Shown here in pieces: positions 1 through 11,242 of a DNA stretch of 64,000 nt; positions within the stretch are counted from its first letter, which is position 1; each line of letters starts with the position of its first letter. The DNA comes from Rudanella paleaurantiibacter (GTDB taxonomy: Bacteria > Bacteroidota > Bacteroidia > Cytophagales > Spirosomataceae): NCBI RefSeq assembly GCF_009184635.1, contig NZ_WELI01000005.1, forward strand, positions 248,001-312,000, in the 5' to 3' direction. Position numbers and translations under genes: made by a program. Below the pieces are notes generated by a model, which was not told the origin of the DNA, did not search any database, and saw only the letters and a program-made list of their open reading frames with translations.

Positions 1-241
1 GGGTAATCAGCCCGCCGAGCGAGTTCATTGGCGCACCGAATCCGGCCGATAGTTGCGCCCCCATGTTACGAGCACTACGGCTCGCTCCGTTCATGTTACT
101 CGACAACTGGCCGAGCGCCCGACTACCGGTCTGCTGCATCCGGCCTGCCCACTGAGACAGGTTTTGCGAGGCCCGGTTAAGACCCTGCGCAAAGGGCCGG
201 TCGTCGAGCCCTAATGCTACTGATAGACTGCGGGCATCCAT
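1..241 (-). CDS. Phage tail tape measure protein, N-terminus (partial)
   Basis: Only the first 80 residues are in the window; the gene continues past position 1. The start ATG is at 241. The visible part begins MDARSLSVALGLDDRPFAQG and continues with an amphipathic, Gln/Ser/Asn-rich helix. 'LGLDDRPFAQGLNRASQNL' resembles the start of many tape measure proteins, where each repeat reads as a short beta strand followed by a long helix. Tape measure proteins set tail length and are ejected with the DNA. The position directly after the frameshifted tail assembly chaperone is the canonical place for this gene in siphophages. The call rests mainly on that gene order, because the long repeat body is not visible. 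Confidence 0.7.
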   Translation of the reverse strand, partial: MDARSLSVALGLDDRPFAQGLNRASQNLSQWAGRMQQTGSRALGQLSSNMNGASRSARNMGAQLSAGFGAPMNSLGGLIT

Positions 242-247
242 AGCTAA

Positions 248-610
248 TTACGTTGTCGTGTTGGTATATGCCAGCCCGGCTGCAAACTGCCGGAGGGCTT
301 CTCGTTTTTCCTCAGGCGTCATGTCCTGACGTGATTTGGCCCGCTTTACCGACGGACTTTCCTCACCGGGCAGGCTCATGTACTGCTCGGGTTTTATGCG
401 TCGCTTGCGGTCCTGATTGTAGATTTCAGTTGCCAGAATCCGGACCCCTTTCATCATCGACACCCAGTCCTCGTGTGCGACCTCCTGCCGGGCGATGATA
501 TAGCCGATAGCCTGCCCGTAGCCCATCGTGTAGAACTGATCCGGCAGCAGGCCCACGCGAAAGGCTTTATCTTCTAATTCTCCCCAGCTGGGCCAGACTG
601 GGGTTCGGCG
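248..610 (-). CDS. Tail assembly chaperone frameshift extension (lambda gpT-like part)
   Basis: This frame is open upstream to 790 but reads as convincing protein only after about 610, where it is entered by a -1 slip from the overlapping upstream gene. The extension is 120 residues and starts after the slippery site with R-R-T-P-V-W. It holds a conserved-looking middle (QFYTMGYGQAIGYIIARQEV) and a basic C-terminus. The fusion product (1038 to 610, then -1 to 248) would be 263 residues, in line with the gpG-gpGT arrangement. Such G-T proteins bind the tape measure protein and recruit tail tube protein during tail assembly. An independent start at 526 (ATG) is possible but would discard the well-formed frameshift signal. 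No homologue was searched. Confidence 0.75.
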   Translation of the reverse strand, partial: RRTPVWPSWGELEDKAFRVGLLPDQFYTMGYGQAIGYIIARQEVAHEDWVSMMKGVRILATEIYNQDRKRRIKPEQYMSLPGEESPSVKRAKSRQDMTPEEKREALRQFAAGLAYTNTTT

Positions 611-1038
611 TTTGGGTCTGGCTCCGTTTCTTGGGTAGGCTCTGGATTGGCAGCTAATGCCGCTTCCATTTCCAGCCGGATGCGCCGGGCCTCCTCTGTT
701 GTTTTCCGATACAGCGATCCCACAAAGGCGTCGAAAATCTCTACGCCCTGCTCTGGTGTTCCTGCGTTGATGATTTCCACAATCTGCCACTCAGTATAGG
801 TAGCGGACTTGTTCTGAGTCTTCGCGTAGCCCTCCAATCCCGCCCGTACCAGTTCAATCATGTACTCATCAGGGTGGAGTGCTGACACAAACCGCATGAT
901 TTGGGCCGGATCAGTGGAGAGGTTAAAAGCCCGCGCAAAATGGCGGGTAGCCAGTACGTTGTAGGCGAGGGTATGTGAACCGGCCTGTACGATATTATTC
1001 ATAGTGAGATACGAAAAAAGGGTTTCCGGCAAATCCAT
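574..1038 (-). CDS. Tail assembly chaperone (lambda gpG-like)
   Basis: A 154-residue protein lying between the major tail protein and the tape measure gene. The body (about residues 1-115) is helical, and the C-terminal 30 residues are rich in Glu, Pro and Gln, ending in PQSGPAGEN. In lambda-like phages the short form is made in excess, and a few percent of ribosomes slip back one base near the end to make the longer form. The slippery heptamer lies 11 codons before this gene's stop, which is the usual location. The start ATG at 1038 is the first in frame. Function is called from position and from the frameshift cassette rather than from sequence identity. Confidence 0.75.
   Translation of the reverse strand: MDLPETLFSYLTMNNIVQAGSHTLAYNVLATRHFARAFNLSTDPAQIMRFVSALHPDEYMIELVRAGLEGYAKTQNKSATYTEWQIVEIINAGTPEQGVEIFDAFVGSLYRKTTEEARRIRLEMEAALAANPEPTQETEPDPNAEPQSGPAGEN
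582..616 (-). promoter_or_regulatory. Programmed -1 ribosomal frameshift signal
   Basis: On the minus strand, C CCA AAC (616 down to 610) is an exact X XXY YYZ slippery heptamer in the zero frame. It is followed by a 6-base spacer GCCGAA (609-604) and a hairpin with stem CCCCAG/CTGGGG (603-598 with 587-582). The 10-base loop has some further pairing potential (CTGG/CCAG). Slipping moves CCA-AAC to CCC-AAA and opens the frame that ends at 248. Heptamer, spacer and stem all match the arrangement known for phage tail chaperone genes. Confidence 0.85.
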
Positions 1039-1072: not shown

Positions 1073-1507
1073 TTAGGCCGTCAGGTTGCCCTCTACTGGC
1101 TGCGTGGTGATTGACAGACCCAGTGAAGCCCGGTAAGCGGTTTCCATTTCGGCGGTCGTCTCGCACGAGGTCAAAAAACCCTTGAAGGTCACGCCAATAT
1201 CCTGCGTGGCATCAATGCGGATACGCCAGTTCTTGATCTCACGCGACAGTAGCATGGCCCGCAGAGCCGAGTAGTTGATTTTGCCCGCCGAGGTAGCCCG
1301 GTCAACCAGTACCTCGAACGTGTTTTCCCCCGACTTCAGGCCCGGAATCTCTTCACGCCAGCCGCCATTGTCTTTGCTGGTTACGTCGATTTTGTCCACG
1401 TTCAGCCGCTCAGTCTGGCTCGTTTCTTCGGACACCAGCAGCCAGGTACCGGGCGTTACCGATTCAACTTCAAGTCGGACAAGGGTACCATTTAATTTCT
1501 CTGCCAT
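1073..1507 (-). CDS. Phage major tail (tube) protein, TP901-1-like
   Basis: A 144-residue protein that probably polymerises into the tail tube. It shows the TP901-1-type pattern: a short N-terminal MAEKLNGTLVRLEV strand, a tryptophan region (GTWLLVSEETS), a long central beta section with GLKSGENTFEVLVDR, and a helix-strand end with CETTAEMETAYRASL. The length fits small major tail proteins. It sits directly between the tail completion genes and the tail chaperone, where the abundant tube protein is expected. Its stop is separated by about 35 bases from the chaperone start, so it may be strongly and separately translated. Confidence 0.75.
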   Translation of the reverse strand: MAEKLNGTLVRLEVESVTPGTWLLVSEETSQTERLNVDKIDVTSKDNGGWREEIPGLKSGENTFEVLVDRATSAGKINYSALRAMLLSREIKNWRIRIDATQDIGVTFKGFLTSCETTAEMETAYRASLGLSITTQPVEGNLTA

Positions 1508-1509
1508 GA

Positions 1510-1938
1510 TTATACTTGGTTAAGTGTGTGACTCACAGTAATGATTTTCCGGACTACCGTATCGGTGTCCAACAGTTGCGGCATATCACGCGTACCCACT
1601 ACCTGCACCCGAACTACATTGAATCCCGCGACCGATAGTCCCGTTTTGCCCGGTGACGGCGTAATGAGTGCCGTAGCCAGGTTAGCAATGTCCGTTGCCG
1701 GTTTTTTGCTGACAGGTCCCGTGAACCGGGTTACCACGTCAAGCGTAATCTCTCCGGTCTGACCGAAACTGTCTTTTGTCCCGGCCGGCACGCTCACCCA
1801 CGGCCCCAGAATGATGTAGGGTGCTACGGCGTTGTCGGGAGCCTGTAAGCTGTAGAGGACTACCGACTTTCCGTTGTAGGTCAACCCGCCCAGTAGGGTC
1901 GCGTAGGCAGCAGCGAGGGCAAAACCAGCGTCGGTCAT
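1510..1938 (-). CDS. DUF3168-like tail completion protein
   Basis: A 142-residue protein resembling the DUF3168 (tail terminator or neck) group. An N-terminal helix (ALAAAYATLLGGLTYNGKSV) is followed by PYIILGPWVSVPAG and a C-terminal pair of beta strands with VVRKIITVSHTLNQV. In HK97-like phages this protein caps the tail tube and joins it to the head. Its ATG overlaps the stop of the upstream gp10-like gene by 4 bases (1935-1938), so the two are translationally coupled. The family call is from pattern and position. Confidence 0.65.
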   Translation of the reverse strand: MTDAGFALAAAYATLLGGLTYNGKSVVLYSLQAPDNAVAPYIILGPWVSVPAGTKDSFGQTGEITLDVVTRFTGPVSKKPATDIANLATALITPSPGKTGLSVAGFNVVRVQVVGTRDMPQLLDTDTVVRKIITVSHTLNQV

Positions 1939-2348
1939 AGTCGGGCGAGTAGGCGCTTCAGGTCGTTGTAGTAGATTTCGCGGTGCTTAAGAAAGGCGGG
2001 TATCAGGTGGGGCCGGGCAGGTAGATTGATTTGCCGACCTCCTGCACCCCGAAACTGAGAGGCCAGATCATCGAATCCGGGCGGCACATTTACCAGGCCA
2101 CCCGTACCAAATTCGAGGTAGGGGGAGTAAGCCATCGAAAAACTCACCTTCGCCCCCATGCCGTTATTCGTGGGCTCGTAGCTGCCCGATTGCCGGTGTT
2201 TACCCGTGTCGACGGGCGCATTTAGCACGGCCTCCGCTTCAATGTTGCGCCCCGCCCGCTCAGCCAGATTAGCCGCTTCCTGTCGAAGGGTACGGCCCGC
2301 CCCACGAAACGAACGAAGCACATTGTCCAGTCCATTCAGGCGCATCAT
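1935..2348 (-). CDS. HK97 gp10-like head-tail joining protein
   Basis: 137 residues with the usual HK97-gp10 features: an N-terminal RLNGLDNVLRSFRG, a helix with many Ala and Arg, the motif APVDTGKHRQSGSYE near residue 45, a central YSPYLEFGTGG, and 'ARPHLIPAF' before the last helix. 'PVDTG.L..S' followed by 'Y....E.GT' and 'PF..PA' is the family signature, and each is recognisable here. The protein acts at the head-tail interface. It overlaps both neighbours by about 4 bases, as expected in a compact morphogenesis operon. The start may be the first or second Met. Confidence 0.75.
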   Translation of the reverse strand: MMRLNGLDNVLRSFRGAGRTLRQEAANLAERAGRNIEAEAVLNAPVDTGKHRQSGSYEPTNNGMGAKVSFSMAYSPYLEFGTGGLVNVPPGFDDLASQFRGAGGRQINLPARPHLIPAFLKHREIYYNDLKRLLARL

Positions 2349-2668
2349 GGTGTCAGCGATTGGGTTTCAAGGGTCTGCTGCCGACGGTCGTCACTCAGCA
2401 GCGGTGGCGCAATTAGCCCCAGCCGCTCACCCCGGTAAATAATCACATCGCCCACATGCAACTGAATCGTAGCCGGTACATACCCCGTAAACGAGTAGCG
2501 AGGATTCAGATAGGGCTTAAAGCCCTCGGCGGTCATCGTGCCGTTTCGGCGTTTCACCGAAAACAGACCCGAAAACACCGTGACATCAGCACCCGCCAGA
2601 AAGCCCCCGGCTCCATCGGGCACCGTACCTGCCCGCACAATTTGTATCGGTTCGGTTAGCTTGCCCAT
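2345..2668 (-). CDS. Phage head closure / head-tail adaptor protein
   Basis: Start chosen at 2668 (MGKLTEPIQIVRAG), because the open frame upstream to 2704 lies inside the preceding gene. The product is 107 residues and matches head closure proteins such as SPP1 gp16 or HK97 gp9-like: a first strand 'L.EPIQI', then PDGAGGF, SVKRRNGT, a strand pair, and 'IIYRGERLGLIAPP' near the C-terminus. The gene overlaps the upstream connector by 13 bases. It would close the connector channel after DNA packaging. The sequence is strongly beta-rich, as expected. Confidence 0.7.
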   Translation of the reverse strand: MGKLTEPIQIVRAGTVPDGAGGFLAGADVTVFSGLFSVKRRNGTMTAEGFKPYLNPRYSFTGYVPATIQLHVGDVIIYRGERLGLIAPPLLSDDRRQQTLETQSLTP

Positions 2669-3153
2669 GTGACGGTTCGGTAGGCCCGCGCGAGTGTTTT
2701 CCACTCACGGGGTATATTATCGAAGAGCGAACCGGCCAGTAAACAAATAGCCTCGGCCAGATCACCCGGCAGCGTCGTGTAACCAGTGGTTACAGTCAGC
2801 TTCAACTCCGAACCAACGGGCATATCTGGAATGTAGCCACCTGCATACGGCGCGAGGTCTGTCAGTGTCACCCCGTCCAGTTCGGCCCCGGTAACGGCCA
2901 CAAAGGGAACCACCGGAATCCGCCAGGCTATGGGAGTCGACACAACCAGTACCGCCGTCGAGGGGATCAGCGTCGCCCCTGTCCAGCTACTCACCCGGTT
3001 AATAGCTGCGGTGAGGCAAGCCGTTAACCGGGTGTCGTGCTGGTTGAAGTCAATCGAAAGCAAACCCTTCAGCGACGGCAGCAGCGTCGTAGCCATAGCA
3101 TCCGCTGTGCTGGTGGGCGTTATGGTTAGCTGCTGAGTCATGCGAACGGTCAT
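2656..3153 (-). CDS. Phage head-tail connector (gp6-like)
   Basis: 165 residues. It has the connector layout: helices at the N-terminus (SLKGLLSIDFNQHDTRL, then LTAAINRVSSWTG), a beta insertion that includes PYAGGYIPDMPVGSELKLTV and TTGYTTLPGDL, and closing helices (AEAICLLAGSLFDN). 'TGY..LP.DL..A...L....' is typical of the HK97 gp6 and DUF3199-like connectors that form a ring under the portal. Alternative starts exist at Met1 and Met5, and the first is kept. It directly follows the acidic protein, 2 bases after its stop. Confidence 0.7.
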   Translation of the reverse strand: MTVRMTQQLTITPTSTADAMATTLLPSLKGLLSIDFNQHDTRLTACLTAAINRVSSWTGATLIPSTAVLVVSTPIAWRIPVVPFVAVTGAELDGVTLTDLAPYAGGYIPDMPVGSELKLTVTTGYTTLPGDLAEAICLLAGSLFDNIPREWKTLARAYRTVTWAS

Positions 3154-3155
3154 TC

Positions 3156-3443
3156 TTAGGCTTTTTTACACTTTTCGGGCTTCTCTTCGACAGTGGCCTT
3201 CTCAGGATCCGGTGCAGGTTCACCTTTTTCAGGTTCGGTCTCTGGCTCCGGTGCAGGTTCCTCATCCGGCTCCGATTCTCCATCCGGTTCTGGCTCCTCA
3301 TCCGGCTCAGGAATCTCTTCCTCTGCCAGATAAGCAACACCGTCGGCGATGTAGCTGTCAGCGATCCAGTCCGGCACCGTCACCGTTGTGTTTTCGGGCA
3401 CTCCCGTCTGTTCGAGAGTGCCCGTTGTGGTGATCGTCTTCAT
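3156..3443 (-). CDS. Acidic Glu/Pro-repeat protein of the head operon
   Basis: 95 residues in two parts. Residues 1-40 look folded (MKTITTTGTLEQTGVPENTT and a short ADGVAYLAEEE segment), and the rest is a repeat of E-P-D/E-E-P-x units ending in a Lys-rich tail. The stretch is almost purely Glu, Asp and Pro and is expected to be disordered. It lies between the major capsid and connector genes with only a few bases on either side, so it is probably translated. Small proteins at this place are often head decoration or connector accessory proteins, but nothing here proves a role. Confidence 0.55.
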   Translation of the reverse strand: MKTITTTGTLEQTGVPENTTVTVPDWIADSYIADGVAYLAEEEIPEPDEEPEPDGESEPDEEPAPEPETEPEKGEPAPDPEKATVEEKPEKCKKA

Positions 3444-3449
3444 GAGCGA

Positions 3450-4844
3450 TTAGGCCAGCAGCGCCGTGATACCAGCCGCGAAGGTGCCTTTTACAAACGC
3501 CTTCGTGCTGGGCCCTTTGATGTAGTGAACCCCGCGCATGGTTCCCGTGATGGTTTTGAAGCCCTTCACGGCATCGTCCTCGTTCTGGTCGTAGATGTTC
3601 AACTCAATCCCTTCGCGCACTTTGAAGATCGACTGCGTGAAATCACCCACTAAGAAGCTACCCTGCGTTACCCCTACATTCTGCACAATTGGCAGGCCCG
3701 AAATACGGCGTCCGTTCATGTCCCAGAATGGCGGCATCACGTACACGTCGTTAGCGTCTTTCTTGAGGTTGAGCGCCAGCAAATCGGTCGGGTGCATGAC
3801 GATGTACGTAGGCGTAAACAGGTTGTTGTACACCTGCGTAGCCGCTGTGGCCAGTACATCGAAGTAGCTGGCATCGGCAACAGCCAGCAAACCGGCTGGC
3901 TTGGCAAACGCCGTTGCATACTCCAGAATGCCCTTCAGGTTGGGCGAGGTGCCGTCACCCTTAAACACCTGCTCGTCAGCCTTCAACTCAAGCGAGGTGA
4001 TGATTTCGCTTTGAATCTCACCCATCAGGTAGTCGATGTCGTTGAGGTTCTTACGAGACAACTTGGCAAACACCGTGATGAACTCGGCCGAACGGCTGAA
4101 CTCCTGATAGCTGGTCGAGATTTGGGCGTACTTGGTACCCTCTGCCGTCGTGGCTGCGCCACCCTGCCGGTCAACGCGCTCCACCCAAGAGGCCGTATCA
4201 CTTTCACCGAGCGAGGCTACTGTGATCAGATCGGTAATGAACGGCTGCCGGTCTGGAGCCTTGGCTACGCCCGGATCACGCGACCAAACCGGAATCCGTG
4301 AGCCAGAGGCTACAGTATTCGAGGAGGTCATGTTGACAGCTGCCTTGATTTCCAGATTCACCGAAGTGTTTTTCTGCAACAGCTGGCTCTTTACCGCCGT
4401 TTTGCCGTCAGCGGTCGTGGCATTCAACTGCTCCTCGATCTGCTGCTTAAACGACTTAGTGCGCGTAGAGCCATCCGACTCTTTCAGGCGTTTAGCCTCA
4501 AGTTGCAGATCGTCGAGACCCTTCTGAAGCTGCTCGAACCTATCCTTGTATTCACCTTTAAGGGCTTCGATGTCATCTTTGCTAGCCTTTTTGTTATCGG
4601 CCTCTTTCAGTTCATCCACCCAGCCCTTTACGGTATCCTTCATCTTATCAATGCCTTCTTTGACGCCTTTTTCAACGTCTTCAAGTGAGGTATTGAACCA
4701 ACGCGCCGTACGCTCATAGAGCGGATTTGTGTTGCTCGCCATAAGAGCCATCGACAGGGCAAATGACGGATTACCCTTCCGGGCGGATAGGCTCAGAAAA
4801 AGAGCAAAGACCGCCAACATCATCATGCAGAGTTGCAGATTCAT
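3450..4844 (-). CDS. HK97-type major capsid protein
   Basis: 464 residues. Residues 45-140 form a charged coiled-coil region (DVEKGVKEGIDKMKDTVKG and further heptads) that matches the delta domain acting as internal scaffold and removed by the prohead protease. From about residue 170 the HK97 fold follows: SGSRIPVWSRDPG, then EFITVFAKLSRKNLND, 'LELKADEQVFKGDGTSPNLKG' and the C-terminal 'GLPIVQNVGVTQGSFLVGDF'. The gene comes 8 bases after the protease stop. Oddly, the annotated N-terminus is hydrophobic (residues 2-20); a start at residue 35 (4742) would remove it. Confidence 0.9.
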   Translation of the reverse strand: MNLQLCMMMLAVFALFLSLSARKGNPSFALSMALMASNTNPLYERTARWFNTSLEDVEKGVKEGIDKMKDTVKGWVDELKEADNKKASKDDIEALKGEYKDRFEQLQKGLDDLQLEAKRLKESDGSTRTKSFKQQIEEQLNATTADGKTAVKSQLLQKNTSVNLEIKAAVNMTSSNTVASGSRIPVWSRDPGVAKAPDRQPFITDLITVASLGESDTASWVERVDRQGGAATTAEGTKYAQISTSYQEFSRSAEFITVFAKLSRKNLNDIDYLMGEIQSEIITSLELKADEQVFKGDGTSPNLKGILEYATAFAKPAGLLAVADASYFDVLATAATQVYNNLFTPTYIVMHPTDLLALNLKKDANDVYVMPPFWDMNGRRISGLPIVQNVGVTQGSFLVGDFTQSIFKVREGIELNIYDQNEDDAVKGFKTITGTMRGVHYIKGPSTKAFVKGTFAAGITALLA

Positions 4845-4852
4845 GGTTGTGA

Positions 4853-5620
4853 TTAAAAAGAAAATTGAGATTTAAGCCGCTGGGCAAGGGCCTGCAAATC
4901 GGACGAATCCGGCTGAGTGGTAATTTCCGGCTCAGTGGTTTTCAGAGATTTGAGAACACTCTGCATTTGGGCAAACTGGGACTCTAACTGAATAAAGCAT
5001 TCATCAGTGAAGGTGCCCGTTTTGAGGGCCTTTGTGAGAGAGACAAACTGCTCTTCGAGGTCTCGGTATGATTTGACCTCCACCGTCGGCGTATCGGGAT
5101 TGGCCCCCCAAAGCACCGTCGACCCCTCAAAGAGTTTAACTTCGGCGATCTCGAAGTAACGCCCACCAATGGACGTGGTACGCGAATCGCCCTTGACGGT
5201 GCGAAATCCGACCGAGTGCTGATTCACCAGCCCCATGTCATACATTTTCAGGACATCCAGCGCGTGCGAGGTATCGAGAAACGTAGTGATACCCTTGAGT
5301 CCGGTCGTGTCAACCTCCAGATCGGGTTTACCCAGGCAGAACTCGGGCTGTGAACGGTGGTTGGAAAGATGCCAGATTAAGTCAGAACCCTTGCGGCCAC
5401 GTTCCTTAATCGTTTTGGTGAATGCCGAGGGCAACATCAAATCGCCATCGGAGTCGACGTTGCCGAACTTGGAGAAGTAAACGACGACCTGCCGCTTTTG
5501 CGTGTCGACATCGACGGCCCCGCCCGATATAGATTTAAATTTCACCGTGTGCCCTGATTTGGTTGCGGTGAAACTAAAAAGCCCCTTGGGGAAAGGGGCT
5601 AAAATTCGACTCTTCGGCAA
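4853..5620 (-). CDS. HK97 family prohead protease
   Basis: 255 residues, a serine protease that cleaves the capsid delta domain during head maturation. The typical sequence elements are present in order: a strand near VDTQKRQVVVYFSKFGNVD, DGDLMLPSAFTKTI, the catalytic His region WHLSNHRSQP near residue 105, GLVNQHSVGFRT with the catalytic Ser near residue 137, and WGANPDTPTVEV. The C-terminal 75 residues are helical and may act in assembly. Its place immediately before the capsid gene is the standard order. The start at 5620 is the first ATG. Confidence 0.9.
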   Translation of the reverse strand: MPKSRILAPFPKGLFSFTATKSGHTVKFKSISGGAVDVDTQKRQVVVYFSKFGNVDSDGDLMLPSAFTKTIKERGRKGSDLIWHLSNHRSQPEFCLGKPDLEVDTTGLKGITTFLDTSHALDVLKMYDMGLVNQHSVGFRTVKGDSRTTSIGGRYFEIAEVKLFEGSTVLWGANPDTPTVEVKSYRDLEEQFVSLTKALKTGTFTDECFIQLESQFAQMQSVLKSLKTTEPEITTQPDSSDLQALAQRLKSQFSF

Positions 5621-5632
5621 TTGGCGAAGGGG

Positions 5633-5854
5633 CTATTCACGAAAGGCGGGCTGGCCTTCCGGAAACACCTTAGCCAACTCCGGTTTTACCTCCCGTACAC
5701 GATCACCTACCTGATCGGGCTGCACGGTGTCATGCTTGCGTCTTCCCGTGAAGATGTCATCGGGTATGCGCTTTGGGTACGCTGCACAGGTGAACCGCTT
5801 CCCATAGTGAACGCATTTAAAACAATACATCGATGTCATAATGCCAGGGAGCAA
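5633..5854 (-). CDS. Small Cys/His protein, paralogue A
   Basis: 73 residues with CFKC near the N-terminus, a third Cys in 'FTCAAYPKRIPD', then 'GRRKHDTVQPDQVGD'. The C-x-x-C, C-x-A-Y-P, I/V-P, G and H arrangement resembles small proteins found beside MuF genes in other phages (C..C...C.AFP..IP...G...H). Three Cys and one His could bind a zinc ion. It is paralogous to the gene immediately upstream (5858-6055), sharing AYP and TVQPDQVG. The likely real start is one of three nearby Met codons (residues 1, 6, 9). Function is unknown. Confidence 0.65.
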   Translation of the reverse strand: MLPGIMTSMYCFKCVHYGKRFTCAAYPKRIPDDIFTGRRKHDTVQPDQVGDRVREVKPELAKVFPEGQPAFRE

Positions 5855-5857
5855 ACG

Positions 5858-6055
5858 CTACACATCACGCTTAAGCACAAACGTACCGACCTGATCCGGC
5901 TGAACGGTACGATGTTCCTCTTCGCCAAACTCGTACTTCTCAGGAACTCCATTCGGATAAGCCCGGCACACAAGACGCTTCTTTTTAACGCCCGAGTGCT
6001 CACATTGAAAGCAGGGAGGAATCCGTTGTCCCATGTCTTTTAGTGGCTTTTCCAT
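5858..6055 (-). CDS. Small Cys/His protein, paralogue B
   Basis: 65 residues and the tandem partner of the next gene. CFQC at residues 15-18, a third Cys in LVCRAYPNGVPE, a Gly-rich turn, and 'EEEHRTVQPDQVG' at the C-terminal side. It lacks the C-terminal tail of paralogue A. Three Cys plus His suggests a small zinc-binding fold. It starts exactly where the MuF-metallopeptidase gene ends (both at 6055), implying coupled translation. The duplicated pair inside the head operon is unusual and hints at a dosage or heteromer role, but this is only inference. Confidence 0.65.
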   Translation of the reverse strand: MEKPLKDMGQRIPPCFQCEHSGVKKKRLVCRAYPNGVPEKYEFGEEEHRTVQPDQVGTFVLKRDV

Positions 6056-7566
6056 TATGGTAAAGATACTATTTTTTTGAGTAGTAACCGCTCCAGCGCC
6101 GAGAGCTTTTCGACCCTGTTAGGCAAATAGTGATAGGCTACGAATGCCTCAGCTAAGGACTCATGCTGATCCAGTCGGGCATACTTGGAGATGGCATCCT
6201 GTTTTTCCTCTTCTGATAGCTTCTTACTCAGGCTACGCACCCAATTTGCATTAATTCGCTCGTAGCTGATATCTGAATCCAGAAATGTAGACAGGTGGAG
6301 CAAGTGACCATACTCATGCACTACGGCGGACTCCACACTTCCCCGGAAGAAAAAGCCTACTTTCTCCATTCTGGCTGCGTATTCCTCGGTTTGACGAGCT
6401 TTACGCGGACTCCACAGGTTACCATTTATGAGCAGCTGTACCTGATTGGTGGTTTTATACATCAAGCCGGTCGAAAAGGTAGTATCCCTCTGCATATCAA
6501 ACCGAATCGCTATACTGTCATAACTCTTGCCGTATTTCACTTTCAGAGCATAGAGCTGGTTGTTGATCCGATTAGCCACTTTAGGGGCAATCCCTGTATA
6601 ATCTACTTCTCCGCCAATGTGCTGCTCAGCCCACGTAGCCGCTTCATCGGTAGTTTTAGCCTCACTAAACGGGACACCTTTCCGCTTCTTGATAATATCG
6701 CGAGTGATCGGCTTTGTTGGCCCGGCTATTATGTCTTCGTCATCCCCCAACGCCATCGGCCGCGCGTAGGGCGTTCCAGCAGGTACGTACAACACCCGGC
6801 ACCGACAATTCACGCAGTTGGCCGCTCCGCCGGCCGGATCACCTGGGTAACGCATCCGCACCCCTCCGACCGTAAACAGGGCCTCCTTGGGAATCGCAGG
6901 TTTGCCGATCATAGCCCGATGGGCGTCGCGTGTGCGTGGGTCGGCAGTAGCCACCCACCGCTTCGCCAAATCAAGCCCCGTCGATGCGGCCCCGGCTTCG
7001 TGGCCCGCGTTGGCGGCCCGCGTGGTTTCGGTACGGGCAATGGTGATGCTACGCCGTTCGCCCCGCTTCCCCCCGATGGCCGTGCGGATGCGCCGGGCCG
7101 TGGCTCGGATGTCGAGCCGTTCGGCGTTGGCTCCGACGAGCGCCTGACGGATGGCGGTACGGGTCGTGTTGCTGATCTGGGTCACCCGGGCGGCCGTATC
7201 GGGCTGCATGAGCATCGACTCCACCCGGCCCTGCCATACCCGCGAGAAAAACCCTACCTGCATCGACTCAGGTACGGGCGTTCCTTGGTCGGCAACCATC
7301 TGCCGAATCCGCTCAAACTCCCCCGTCGCGGCCGAGGGAAACACCTGCCGGTATATGCGACCGAGCATCGCCCGTACGTCCATGGCAGGCACCAACCGTT
7401 CCAGGTTGTTTAGCGTCGCCATGATGCCGTTCTCTTCCAGATAGGCAATCACCGCTTCACGAACCCGGCGGAGCCATAGACGCACGTAACCCGTCGACCG
7501 GCGCTCCATAGTCAGGAGCCACCGAACATACTGGCGCGATTCGCGGTCGTTTTGGGCCGGGGTCAT
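6055..7566 (-). CDS. MuF head morphogenesis protein fused to a zincin metallopeptidase
   Basis: 503 residues in two parts. Residues about 120-265 are the MuF domain: ARTETTRAANAGHEAG, KRWVATADPRTRDAHRAMIG, VRMRYPGDPAGGAANCVNCR with the conserved NCRC. MuF proteins enter the procapsid with the portal. The C-terminal part (about 300-503) carries HEYGH at 417-421 and a downstream HESLAEAF (Glu469 candidate third ligand), the HExxH...E pattern of a zincin. Similar MuF C-terminal extensions include toxins and peptidases. The gene overlaps the DUF6527 gene by 4 bases. The peptidase target is unknown. Confidence 0.85.
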   Translation of the reverse strand: MTPAQNDRESRQYVRWLLTMERRSTGYVRLWLRRVREAVIAYLEENGIMATLNNLERLVPAMDVRAMLGRIYRQVFPSAATGEFERIRQMVADQGTPVPESMQVGFFSRVWQGRVESMLMQPDTAARVTQISNTTRTAIRQALVGANAERLDIRATARRIRTAIGGKRGERRSITIARTETTRAANAGHEAGAASTGLDLAKRWVATADPRTRDAHRAMIGKPAIPKEALFTVGGVRMRYPGDPAGGAANCVNCRCRVLYVPAGTPYARPMALGDDEDIIAGPTKPITRDIIKKRKGVPFSEAKTTDEAATWAEQHIGGEVDYTGIAPKVANRINNQLYALKVKYGKSYDSIAIRFDMQRDTTFSTGLMYKTTNQVQLLINGNLWSPRKARQTEEYAARMEKVGFFFRGSVESAVVHEYGHLLHLSTFLDSDISYERINANWVRSLSKKLSEEEKQDAISKYARLDQHESLAEAFVAYHYLPNRVEKLSALERLLLKKIVSLP

Positions 7567-7871
7567 TTAAACCAGTCGTCAAAGGGTGGCAAATCAACCG
7601 TTTGTCCTGCCAGTTCATGTGTAGAATCAGACAGGAACTCAATGCGCCCATCTGTAATAAATGAGTGGCACCGCGGTTGACCCGGATGCGTATCCGTGCC
7701 CTCCCAAGCATGAACCAAAACAGATGCCCGTACTGTGGGCCTCTCCGGCGTTCCTGTTATGTCCCAAATCGTGTCCTTGACGCCATGAACACCTTTGCAA
7801 CCGGGGCAAAAGAAAAGATGCTGTCCGGTTGGTATGCCTTCTGCATTTACGGTGGGTTTTAGTCTTTCCAT
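7563..7871 (-). CDS. DUF6527 family protein
   Basis: 102 residues with the DUF6527 pattern: 'FFCPGCKGVH' near residue 20, then 'PERPTVRASVLV', 'PRCHSFITDGRIEFLSDSTH' and 'ELAGQTVDLPPFDDW'. Cys and His in CPGC and RCHSF are probable metal ligands. These proteins are common in phages and mobile regions, and their function is not established. The gene lies between the portal and the MuF gene and overlaps the latter by 4 bases, so it belongs to the head operon. Confidence 0.75.
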   Translation of the reverse strand: MERLKPTVNAEGIPTGQHLFFCPGCKGVHGVKDTIWDITGTPERPTVRASVLVHAWEGTDTHPGQPRCHSFITDGRIEFLSDSTHELAGQTVDLPPFDDWFK

Positions 7872-7945
7872 GTCGAACCTGTGTGGAATTGAAACTTAAT
7901 CGGGCAATTGTTCAAGCGTACAGATTTCGCCGTCGGTGCACATGG

Positions 7946-9358
7946 CTATGCCTCTTCTTCGTACACGTCCTCTTCCTCAGTATCCGGCTCATTACCTGAT
8001 GGCGGGTCAGTTGGCACGAAGTCGGTCACCGGGGTACGGCCTGCGGGCACCATCGGCACGTTCATCATGGGGTGGTCGTGAGGCTCGTACCCGAACGCTT
8101 CGAGCCGCTGGTTTTCAGTCAGGGCCAAATGGTCGAGGTATTTGGCCTTCCGCTCGTTATCTTCCTGCAACTCGGGGTAATAATCGAGATCAGGTTCGAG
8201 GTGATACTGTTCCCGTTCGGTATTATACGAGGCCACGAAGAAGGCGTTGAGGTAATCATAGATAAGTGCCTGATCGGGCAGCACCCCGTCGGTCAAACTG
8301 GATTTCCGGGCCTCGGTCAGATTGTTGAAGGTGGATTGTTTACCCGAGCTATGCACTTCTTTGCGGGTATGATACACCGCGCAAACTTTCTCCAGCATCG
8401 CGTCGTACGATTCGATAATGTTCAGGTCGACCAGCGTACTCCCCACGTCGATACTGCCCAACTCCATTGAGTTCGCAATAACTTTCCCGTACCCGCCCGA
8501 AAGTTTTGCGTCGAGATGCTCCTGCACCTCTTTTACCTGCTTTACGTCCAGATCGTCGATGTTTCCACCTTTTGGAAACACCAGTTTTCTGGCCCCCCGG
8601 TTCTGGAAGGCCTCGGCCTCGGCGGCATTGGCCTCCGCGTGCTTCGTCAGTACAGACTTACGCAGGGGTTCCAGGCGCGAAAGGCCCCAGTGCCATTGGG
8701 CGTTGATTTCGGCGAGTGGGTTGAATGACTTCAACATCATCACCCGGTCGGCCGGTATTGCTTCTCTCAAGCCCAGCGCCCGAAACACCGTCGGCCCCGA
8801 CATCAGCCCCATGCCCTCGACCATCATGCCCAGCTCCGGTAGCCGCCAAAGCTCTCGAACCTGACCCTTATTGACTCCGGTATCGAGCTTGTTCCCGTAC
8901 ACGAACACCGTACCCACCACATCCAGCATTGTGGCGAGTGCATACATCAACTGGACACGGGTCTGCATGGGGTTCGGCCGCTCCAGCACATCGAGAATAT
9001 AGTGCCGGTCGACGGGTTCCAGAGCAGCCTCACGAGCCGCTTTGCGGGCAATCCCCAGAATACGGTCGTTGGGTTGTTCCAGACACTTGCGCGACAATTC
9101 CCGGTACTGGCGAAACTTCACCTTGTCCTTGACCTGAAACAGCATTGGCGGAGCGGCCGCAATCTTCTGGCTTTTCCAGTCCTGCACCGAGAAAATCATA
9201 TCGTCCTCGGTATAGGCCCGAACGTAGGTAGCTACATCGGCCGGCAATACCTGCACCTGCCGACCGGTCCAAATAAAATTGAGCCGCCCACTACGCAGAG
9301 CGGGCAAGGTGCCGGGCATCAGGGCCGTGGCCAGTTTAGTACGCAGTTCCTTTAGCAT
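7946..9358 (-). CDS. Phage portal protein
   Basis: About 470 residues of an HK97-type portal. Recognisable parts are AAAPPMLFQV near the start, 'DVLERPNPMQTR', 'GTVFVYGNKLD', 'LWRLPELGMMVEG', 'DRVMMLKSFNPL', 'NRGARKLVFPKGGN' and 'KVCAVYHTRKEV', followed by 'TFNNLTEARKSS'. The C-terminus is acidic (DTEEEDVYEEEA). The portal forms the 12-fold ring through which DNA enters the head. The start is taken at 9358 because TAATG overlaps the terminase stop there; an ATG at 9373 gives five more residues. A 74-base space follows. Confidence 0.88.
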   Translation of the reverse strand: MLKELRTKLATALMPGTLPALRSGRLNFIWTGRQVQVLPADVATYVRAYTEDDMIFSVQDWKSQKIAAAPPMLFQVKDKVKFRQYRELSRKCLEQPNDRILGIARKAAREAALEPVDRHYILDVLERPNPMQTRVQLMYALATMLDVVGTVFVYGNKLDTGVNKGQVRELWRLPELGMMVEGMGLMSGPTVFRALGLREAIPADRVMMLKSFNPLAEINAQWHWGLSRLEPLRKSVLTKHAEANAAEAEAFQNRGARKLVFPKGGNIDDLDVKQVKEVQEHLDAKLSGGYGKVIANSMELGSIDVGSTLVDLNIIESYDAMLEKVCAVYHTRKEVHSSGKQSTFNNLTEARKSSLTDGVLPDQALIYDYLNAFFVASYNTEREQYHLEPDLDYYPELQEDNERKAKYLDHLALTENQRLEAFGYEPHDHPMMNVPMVPAGRTPVTDFVPTDPPSGNEPDTEEEDVYEEEA

Positions 9359-10698
9359 TATGCGACGGCCCACTGTCGGGCGGGTTTGAGTTCGAAATAT
9401 TCGCGCATCATCATACAGTCCGAAAAGTCAGGCGACCGACCCAGAATGGCCGACACCTCTTCTTTGGGGACGACGGTTTGCTTTCCGTCCTTCTCGATGT
9501 CCTTCTTTTTGACCTGCTCCAGCTCCTCAATCAACCGCTCCTTTTGCTCTACGGACATACAGCCAGGCGCAACGCGAATCGCCCCCCGGTTGATGCGGTC
9601 AGCCAGTTTGAAGTAGCATTGAGATTTGAGGTTGGCATAGTTGAGTGTCTTTTTACCTTCGATAGGTACGCGCTCCTCCATCGGCCGGGCATTGTTGATA
9701 AAGCCATGGCAACGCACCAGATCGACAACACCTCCGCCAACGCCATCCTCATCCGCTACCACGCGTTTAGGCGTCAGGCCATGCTTTTGCAGGAGTTCAT
9801 TGATTTTGGCGGCCGTTTCGGTCACGGCTGATTTGGGCATCGTGTGCCACTCGACAATATCCCAATCGGCCCAGACAGCGATGACGGTGAAGTCGGAGCC
9901 GAACCGGGCCACGTCACAGGTAATGTGCGTGGGCGTGGTGGACAGAGTGCCCGCATCCCATAGGCCCACGATGGCATCGTAGGCAATCAGAGCCGATGGG
10001 TCATCATCATACTCCCAGTCACCATCCAACAAACGGGCCTTGCTCGCCTTGTCCAGCGTATTCAGATTGGCGATGTAGTGCTTACTGATATGCGGGTTGT
10101 CTGTAACCAGCGCCTGAATGAATGCCCGCTCAGGCGGCAGCGTGCGCTCGCGGTGTGGCTTATAGAACCGGGCGTACACAAAGGTTTTGGCCGGGTTACA
10201 GGAGCCCAGTAGCTTCGGGATAAGGCCGAACTCGTCCAGCTTGTAGCGAATACGCGACTTGACGATGTTCCAGGCTTTCTCGGTAATCTGGTTACACTCA
10301 TCAATGAAGCCGCCCGTGATTTCGAGTGAACCGAGACTGTCGAAGTTTGGGTCTGACGGGTATAGTTTCAGATCTTTCAACAGAATCTCAGACCCGTTAC
10401 TCCAGCGAATCGTACCCGACTGCTGGTTGTAGTTGTAGTGAATCCCACCACCCCGAAAGCCGAAGCGCCCCGCAACCTCAAAGAAGGTATTCAGCGTCGT
10501 TTCTTTGAGGATCTTGAGCTCTGAACGCCCCATCAGCCACCGGGTGCCGGGGTAGAGTTGGCAGCACTGGATCAACCAGACGCAACCAAAGGCCGACTTG
10601 CCACCACCCGCCCCACCACCAAACAGAATCTCGGTCGTGTGCCCATCCATCAGGTAGTCGTAGGCCTGATCCTGTTTATGGGTCAGTTCAAAGTCCAT
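9358..10698 (-). CDS. terL: Terminase large subunit
   Basis: 446 residues, the packaging motor and DNA-cutting enzyme. The ATPase part has Walker A GGGAGGGKS at 27-35, Walker B with FIDE at 131-134, and a coupling motif GSCNP at 165-169. The C-terminal RNase H-like nuclease shows Asp262 in CDVARFGSDFTVI, an acidic cluster VVADEDGVGGG near 316-318, and Asp424/Asp427 in RSPDFSDCMMM. All catalytic positions appear intact. It overlaps the small subunit gene by 11 bases and the portal start by one base. Confidence 0.92.
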   Translation of the reverse strand: MDFELTHKQDQAYDYLMDGHTTEILFGGGAGGGKSAFGCVWLIQCCQLYPGTRWLMGRSELKILKETTLNTFFEVAGRFGFRGGGIHYNYNQQSGTIRWSNGSEILLKDLKLYPSDPNFDSLGSLEITGGFIDECNQITEKAWNIVKSRIRYKLDEFGLIPKLLGSCNPAKTFVYARFYKPHRERTLPPERAFIQALVTDNPHISKHYIANLNTLDKASKARLLDGDWEYDDDPSALIAYDAIVGLWDAGTLSTTPTHITCDVARFGSDFTVIAVWADWDIVEWHTMPKSAVTETAAKINELLQKHGLTPKRVVADEDGVGGGVVDLVRCHGFINNARPMEERVPIEGKKTLNYANLKSQCYFKLADRINRGAIRVAPGCMSVEQKERLIEELEQVKKKDIEKDGKQTVVPKEEVSAILGRSPDFSDCMMMREYFELKPARQWAVA

Positions 10699-11179
10699 CT
10701 TTGGCAGGCCGGATGATGTTGACAGTTACAGGCGGTATGGCGCCAGCGGGATTAATCTTACCCTGGGCTTCGAGAATCTTAACCACCGCATCTTTGGCGT
10801 CGTGCAGCTCGATGCTAATACCACGAGGCCCCTGGGTTATTTTCTTGATCAGATGCAGATTGGCGCGGGCTTCTTCACTTGTGAGGTCTAATGCGCCATC
10901 CTCTGTAACAAACGGGCTCATGTCGGCCCTTGCCCAGTCGGTGAGTCGCGAAATGCCCTCCTCAACCGGCATCTGCCGTGCTTCCAGCAGCGGGGCCAAT
11001 GCCTCTTTGATGTGAGGTTTAGTGAGGTTCTCGTACGCCGTTTCTTTGGCCGTAGCTTCTGAATAGCCAGCCTCCCGGGCGGCCCGTGCACCATTGAGGT
11101 GCAGGGCGTACCGCTCCACGAACTTCCTTTCTTTCGGGGTAAGTTTTTTGGGGGCTGGGGTGTTCGATGGCTCATTCAT
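10688..11179 (-). CDS. terS: Terminase small subunit
   Basis: About 163 residues from ATG at 11179 (MNEPSN); the frame is open to 11215 but that extension (MSCWRC) looks non-coding. It shows a helix-turn-helix typical of DNA-recognising small terminases: 'KLTPKERKFVERYALHLNG', 'ARAAREAGYSEATAKETAYE' and LTKPHIKEAL. A central helical oligomerisation region and a basic C-terminus follow. It binds the packaging start site and loads the large subunit. It begins the packaging operon, 64 bases after the LytTR gene. Confidence 0.85.
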   Translation of the reverse strand: MNEPSNTPAPKKLTPKERKFVERYALHLNGARAAREAGYSEATAKETAYENLTKPHIKEALAPLLEARQMPVEEGISRLTDWARADMSPFVTEDGALDLTSEEARANLHLIKKITQGPRGISIELHDAKDAVVKILEAQGKINPAGAIPPVTVNIIRPAKDGL

Positions 11180-11242
11180 AGCGAAAGGCCGAAATGAACA
11201 CCGCCAGCACGACACCTACCGTATATTTCGACTCTTCGGCGG

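Follow-up and report, generated by a model that had tools for sequence, protein, structure and literature searches.

A lambda-type G/GT tail chaperone locus with a probable −1 frameshift signal in a Rudanella prophage

Introduction

In phage lambda the tail assembly genes G and T are joined by a frameshift at the heptamer GGGAAAG, and this G/GT frameshift was reportedly described by Levin in 1993 and by Xu, Hendrix and Duda in 2004 and 2013. The open reading frames (ORFs) overlap, a −1 shift near the end of G yields a scarce fusion protein that binds both the tape measure and the tail tube proteins, and the ratio given for lambda is 30:1 (PMC5009743). The same source describes the tail frameshift as widely conserved although sequence similarity is low, and reports a g-t frameshift in the haloarchaeal viruses HCTV-1, -2 and -5 with the heptamers GGGAAAC, AAAAAAC and GGGAAAG (PMC5009743). 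A scan that took in 22 Bacteroidetes genomes includes a tail-chaperone cluster, and 6–7% is reported for two tail-chaperone genes tested (PMC3711429). In the open-access papers searched we found no paper on tail-chaperone frameshifting in Bacteroidota phages, and a search for CCCAAAC together with frameshifting, which would miss other spellings of the heptamer, returned no title on the subject. The Cellulophaga phages phi18:1, phi18:2, phi12:3 and phi17:1 (Helsingorvirus) have the same gene order as the locus studied here, and their G/T pair is annotated as two hypothetical proteins.

The locus lies at one end of a 64,000-nt stretch of the Rudanella paleaurantiibacter contig NZ_WELI01000005.1 (positions 248,001 to 312,000), which as a whole we call the window. 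A preliminary description had proposed that a −1 frameshift cassette of the lambda-like gpG/gpGT design is present there in a prophage tail chaperone.

Results

The features of the locus, all on the minus strand of the window, are the following.

1 to 241, minus strand: N-terminus of the tape measure protein (TMP_3, E 8.3e-29); 843 aa in total, continuing beyond the window (L002:12710-15241)
251 to 616, minus strand: T extension (−1 frame), with 120 codons following the slip; predicted GT fusion of about 251 aa
577 to 1002, minus strand: gene G, putative tail assembly chaperone, short product; 142 aa from the probable start at ATG 1002, stop at 576–574
582 to 603, minus strand: presumed stimulatory hairpin, 22 nt; 9 bp with one bulge and a 3-nt loop
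604 to 609, minus strand: 6-nt spacer GCCGAA
610 to 616, minus strand: slippery heptamer C CCA AAC (read 616–610), near the end of gene G
1073 to 1507, minus strand: major tail (tube) protein (PF06199, E 1.8e-8; phrog_1407, E 9.6e-16)
1510 to 11215, minus strand: remaining head-tail module, with tail terminator, HK97-gp10-like protein, head-tail adaptor, capsid, protease-like ORF, portal, and large and small terminase subunits

The genes follow one another in the order terminases, portal, capsid, connectors, tail terminator, PF06199 tail tube, G, T and TMP_3 tape measure, and there are two overlapping ORFs between the major tail protein and the tape measure protein, as in the lambda-type G/GT class. 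Within the head-tail module the ORF at 2345–2704 was without a family match, and the protease-like ORF at 4853–5620 was named from its position only. Between the portal and the capsid module there is a long ORF (window 6055–7566) whose N-terminal part, judged by eye, is minor-head-protein-like and whose C-terminal part has a HEYGH motif, which would suit a fused peptidase or toxin domain. The longest ORF for G runs from 577 to 1038 (154 aa from ATG 1038); we moved the start to ATG 1002, probably the correct one, because the sister genome described below lacks an ATG at 1038. The host genome holds 57 T9SS sorting tails, a number consistent with a Bacteroidota host; among 14 control genomes only Deinobacterium and Bacteroides gave a signal, and one of these two exceeds the cut-off. 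The queuosine gene tgt is present in the host, which decides nothing about slippage on AAC.

The heptamer C CCA AAC stands in the zero-frame phase of G, 11 codons before the zero-frame stop at 576–574, with the 6-nt spacer at 609–604. The −1 frame is open from 790, continues past the slip for 120 codons and ends with the stop at 250–248, which is 6 nt from the tape measure gene. The heptamer, the spacer, the distance to the zero-frame stop and the length of the −1 frame agreed with the preliminary description; the CCCCAG/CTGGGG stem reported there was also present, but it was longer than the 6 bp described, the complete hairpin (603–582) having these 6 bp, a bulged U and 3 bp more, a 3-nt loop and a computed stability of about −13 kcal/mol, and being GC-rich. 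CCCAAAC was the sole in-frame X XXY YYZ heptamer where G overlaps the open −1 frame; the frame relation and the presence of such a heptamer in the overlap are those of the lambda-type G/GT class. In codon shuffles of the 72-codon overlap a heptamer with A or T at Y arose with P = 0.167 (about 17%). For the hairpin the shuffle P was 0.04 in a 45-nt fold, the count in 38-nt shuffles was 15 of 200, the positional test gave P 0.44, and a 77-nt fold from the heptamer preferred another structure to the site hairpin (z 0.27). Each taken alone, the heptamer and the hairpin of the window are therefore compatible with chance. The layout is as the preliminary description gave it; the window by itself is weak evidence, not clearly above chance, and the significance of the site comes from its relatives. 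An SD-like GGAG upstream of the heptamer was considered as a stimulator and dropped because it is absent in locus L030.

When G or T was the query, the matches were an almost identical prophage from the same genus (genome G157) and, for T, weak matches to two further genomes of the family. The window and this sister prophage have 27 differences in 760 nt. From position 697 up, 14 of 19 differences fall at third positions of the zero frame; from 572 down, 7 of 8 fall at third positions of the −1 frame; the 124 nt in between, signal included, show none, and the heptamer is unchanged. The main coding frame therefore changes within the stretch that holds the heptamer.

More distant relatives were found through the major tail protein. 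A profile of this protein matched in 11 of 390 genomes of the order and 15 of 222 of the family, plus viral contigs; a T-profile search of 395 genomes of the phylum found its own genome alone, two scans of genome contigs found no relatives, and a viral scan with the tail protein of L030 found none. The set of 20 non-redundant loci was made up of 19 distinct genomes and two further viral contigs (L024 and L040), minus G157 as a duplicate of the window; L008, L009, L022 and L023 were left out as copies. To define G in each locus we looked 300 to 900 nt beyond the tail protein for ORFs with a minimum of 75–80 codons and chose the one that ended first. A search of related prophages was one of the checks proposed in the preliminary description, and the outcome was favorable: 19 of the 20 loci have T in the −1 frame and keep an X XXY YYZ heptamer in the overlap as the sequence drifts, with stems that differ. 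A heptamer with A or T at Y was found in the −1 overlap of all 18 loci tested, against 3.6 expected from codon shuffles, a contrast that is overstated if the loci are taken as independent, because some are related (L016/L036, L017/L018, L019/L020 and L030/L012). L015, G157 and the later-found L040 were not part of this test, and L040 makes the nineteenth case. The heptamers included CCCAAAC, GGGAAAC, GGGAAAG, AAAAAAC, and A- and T-runs. L030, from another genus of the same family, has CCCAAAC in an identical 15-nt block, with the same spacer and a different stem. In L031 (G183) there are in-frame AAAAAAG and AAAAAAC heptamers 36 nt apart, and only the second has a hairpin at +6. A locus in which the heptamer is lost while the −1 frame persists as a separately started gene, named beforehand as the case that would speak against the reading, was absent from the 20; nearest to it were L015, where T is in the +1 frame, and two A-run loci whose junction contains an ATG, L035 and L038.

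Hairpin placement was compared in 16 of the 18 loci, with L036 and L020 left out as near-duplicates and L031 represented by its second heptamer. Hairpins were counted by start offset under a strict rule (five or more pairs in a row, 4 of 5 of them GC, and an energy of −9 or better), which was fixed once some hairpins had been viewed and is thus post hoc. By this rule a hairpin started exactly at +6, the spacing of the window, in 7 of the 16 loci, and 9 had no hairpin at that offset; offsets more than 15 nt away held 0.13 hairpins on average and never more than 2. The excess at +6 has a Poisson P of 1e-10, a value that ignores relatedness and the post hoc choice of rule. When 6 uninterrupted pairs were required, 6 of 16 loci started at +6. 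In a looser energy profile +6 was not singled out, the mean being lowest at offset −1 (−9.6) and next at +6 (−9.1). With 45-nt folds the shuffle P was 0.05 or less at 8 of 20 sites, window included. The stems themselves differ: besides that of the window there are GCGCCAT/ATGGCGC in L030, GCGTCGCC/GGTGGCGC in L012, GACGGG/CCCGTC in L013 and GCCAGC/GCTGGC in L024, and in L005 (heptamer GGGAAAC) a 15-bp stem starts at +4. The zero-frame stop of L005 begins at the last loop base of this stem (L005:1486-1530), and in L017 and L018 the zero-frame stop TAA, after TTTTTTT, lies within the hairpin loop.

Junctions with long A-runs behaved differently. At the A9 run of L015 (G056) the frame of the T homologue is +1 (−2), unlike that in L035 and L038 from the same genus, where it is −1. 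Of the Cellulophaga phages, phi18:1 (L045), phi18:2 (L047) and phi12:3 (L046) have A9 at the G/T junction and T in the +1 frame, whereas phi17:1 (L048) has A10 and T in the −1 frame; the T sequence past the run is the same between A9 and A10 phages. This flip of frame with run length, in which they differ from the window, may reflect transcriptional slippage, as the sequences would allow, or possibly a homopolymer sequencing error. Start codons from which T might be translated are present in L035, L038 and the Cellulophaga genes. Hairpins of −9 kcal/mol or better at +2 to +8 were present at all 8 sites whose A/T run did not exceed 7 and at 3 of 14 sites with longer runs (22 sites tested; the cut was read off afterwards, and the first site of L031, AAAAAAG with a run of 7, was left out). 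Phi18:2 and phi17:1, the two Cellulophaga phages tested, had no qualifying hairpin. A shuffle P of 0.1 or less was obtained at 5 of 8 short-run and 1 of 14 long-run sites (Fisher 0.011); the window is not among the five. It is quite conceivable, with the balance somewhat against it, that Bacteroidota tailed phages pass from G to GT at this one gene position by two interchangeable designs, a heptamer with a hairpin about 6 nt away for a ribosomal −1 shift or an A8–A10 run mostly without a hairpin, at which transcriptional slippage would tolerate exchange between −1 and +1/−2 when the length of the run changes.

The preliminary description held that neither half of the pair is recognizable by motif. 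This was so for sequence families, as G and T had no match in Pfam, NCBIfam or the named PHROGs, the PHROGs yielded one weak unnamed match (E 0.007), and neither protein belongs by sequence to a curated family; it was not so for synteny and, tentatively, for fold. We did not take the missing family match as defining, because the tail frameshift is reported to be conserved despite low similarity (PMC5009743). An AF2 model of G (mean pLDDT 82.6) matched nothing in the PDB folds better than E 1.7, and PDB sequence searches gave only matches of E 0.26 and 0.97. In Foldseek searches of BFVD, in which all matches are predicted structures named by annotation, the best match of the G model, and the sole one at E 0.001 or below, was an unnamed phage protein (E 7.5e-4); matches annotated as tail assembly chaperone began at E 7.7e-3 (prob 1.00, TM about 0.46), other matches were named tail tube protein or tape-measure chaperone, most top matches had a TM of about 0.4–0.5, and N15 GT matched only at E 0.85. 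The G model may resemble predicted tail assembly chaperones. The T model (pLDDT 81.1) had weak fold matches only, the second of which was S0A4N5 of Cellulophaga phage phi18:2 (E 0.062); the G model also matched S0A451 of the same phage (E 0.010). These proteins, of 139 aa (S0A451) and 110 aa (S0A4N5), have the same lengths as gp54 and gp55 of phi18:2 and, judged by length and organism, are presumably those products, which are overlapping neighbors flanked by the tail protein and the tape measure. By hhalign T matched gp57 of phi18:1 with a probability of 96.8%, whereas G and gp56 gave 1.5% and no profile match. We conclude from the profile alignment that T is homologous to an unnamed gene that occupies the corresponding position in Cellulophaga phages. 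A tblastn search of phages with G found no match, the tail protein of the window had one weak Bacillus phage match, and that of L018 had none.

Discussion

The gene order, the heptamers in 19 of 20 loci, the repeated 6-nt hairpin spacing and the tentative resemblance of the G model to predicted tail assembly chaperones support the lambda-like gpG/gpGT tail chaperone design proposed at the outset, and a programmed −1 ribosomal frameshift very probably yields the GT fusion. The locus shares with lambda the overlapping ORFs and the −1 heptamer near the end of G, and differs from it in having CCCAAAC instead of GGGAAAG and a G/T pair without a family-library match. The heptamers given for HCTV-1, -2 and -5 (GGGAAAC, AAAAAAC and GGGAAAG) are those of L005, L012 and L024; these are archaeal viruses, however, and CCCAAAC is not among their three heptamers as listed there (PMC5009743). 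The finding is real and was correctly read: it is a new member of the G/GT class with an unannotated protein family, not a new kind of system.

As we infer the occurrence and rate of frameshifting, the effect of the hairpin and the role in assembly, most ribosomes would translate G to its stop, and the hairpin 6 nt downstream would slow a minority of them. On these the tRNAs on CCA in the P site and AAC in the A site would slip together one base back to CCC and AAA, retaining the first two pairs of both codons, and the slipped ribosomes would read on through T to give a GT protein of about 251 aa. By analogy with lambda, G would line the tape measure protein, the T part of GT would bring in the tail tube protein, and a low GT:G ratio would matter in tail assembly. 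In E. coli with the IS3 stimulator 61 of 64 heptamers are reported as shift-prone, the strongest being CCCAAAG at 54%; codons such as AAC gave less shifting, and AAAAAAC and GGGAAAC were weak, yet are very likely used by IS elements (PMC4066793). By these E. coli rules (PMC4066793) CCCAAAC is expected to shift weakly, and weak shifting aided by a hairpin would be in keeping with a low GT:G ratio.

That T is instead an independent gene, begun at an internal start codon and coupled to G in translation, is very unlikely. Start codons in the T frame do occur in the window, a GTG 20 nt and an ATG 50 nt beyond the G stop, but the conserved W.ELE block of T lies upstream of the first of them; and while the A-run loci L035 and L038 have a junction ATG (+5 and −1 relative to the G stop) immediately ahead of the conserved T sequence, and the Cellulophaga T homologues are annotated as separate ORFs, start positions differ from locus to locus, L017 lacks any start from a point 60 nt ahead of the heptamer onward, and the heptamers and recurring hairpin spacing would be left unexplained. 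A chance heptamer between two decayed or mis-sequenced halves of one gene is less likely still: the codon-shuffle value of the window alone would permit it, but the same arrangement recurs in a second genome and in 19 of 20 loci, and both frames show a coding-type substitution pattern. Least likely of all is transcriptional slippage as the source of the GT fusion, for which we counted the A8–A10 runs at the junction in many relatives and the report that many bacterial genomes, a large share of them, avoid A/T runs from a length of nine (PMC1088944), because no A/T run at the window site exceeds 3 and an in-phase heptamer and hairpin are found there instead.

The programmed −1 frameshift reading adds to the lambda G/GT class a chaperone family that profile libraries do not recognize. 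For Bacteroidota prophages it suggests an annotation rule, namely a heptamer with a hairpin about 6 nt away, between the tail tube and tape measure genes. The locus would also serve as a system for gauging CCCAAAC, expected to be weak in E. coli, on Bacteroidota ribosomes.
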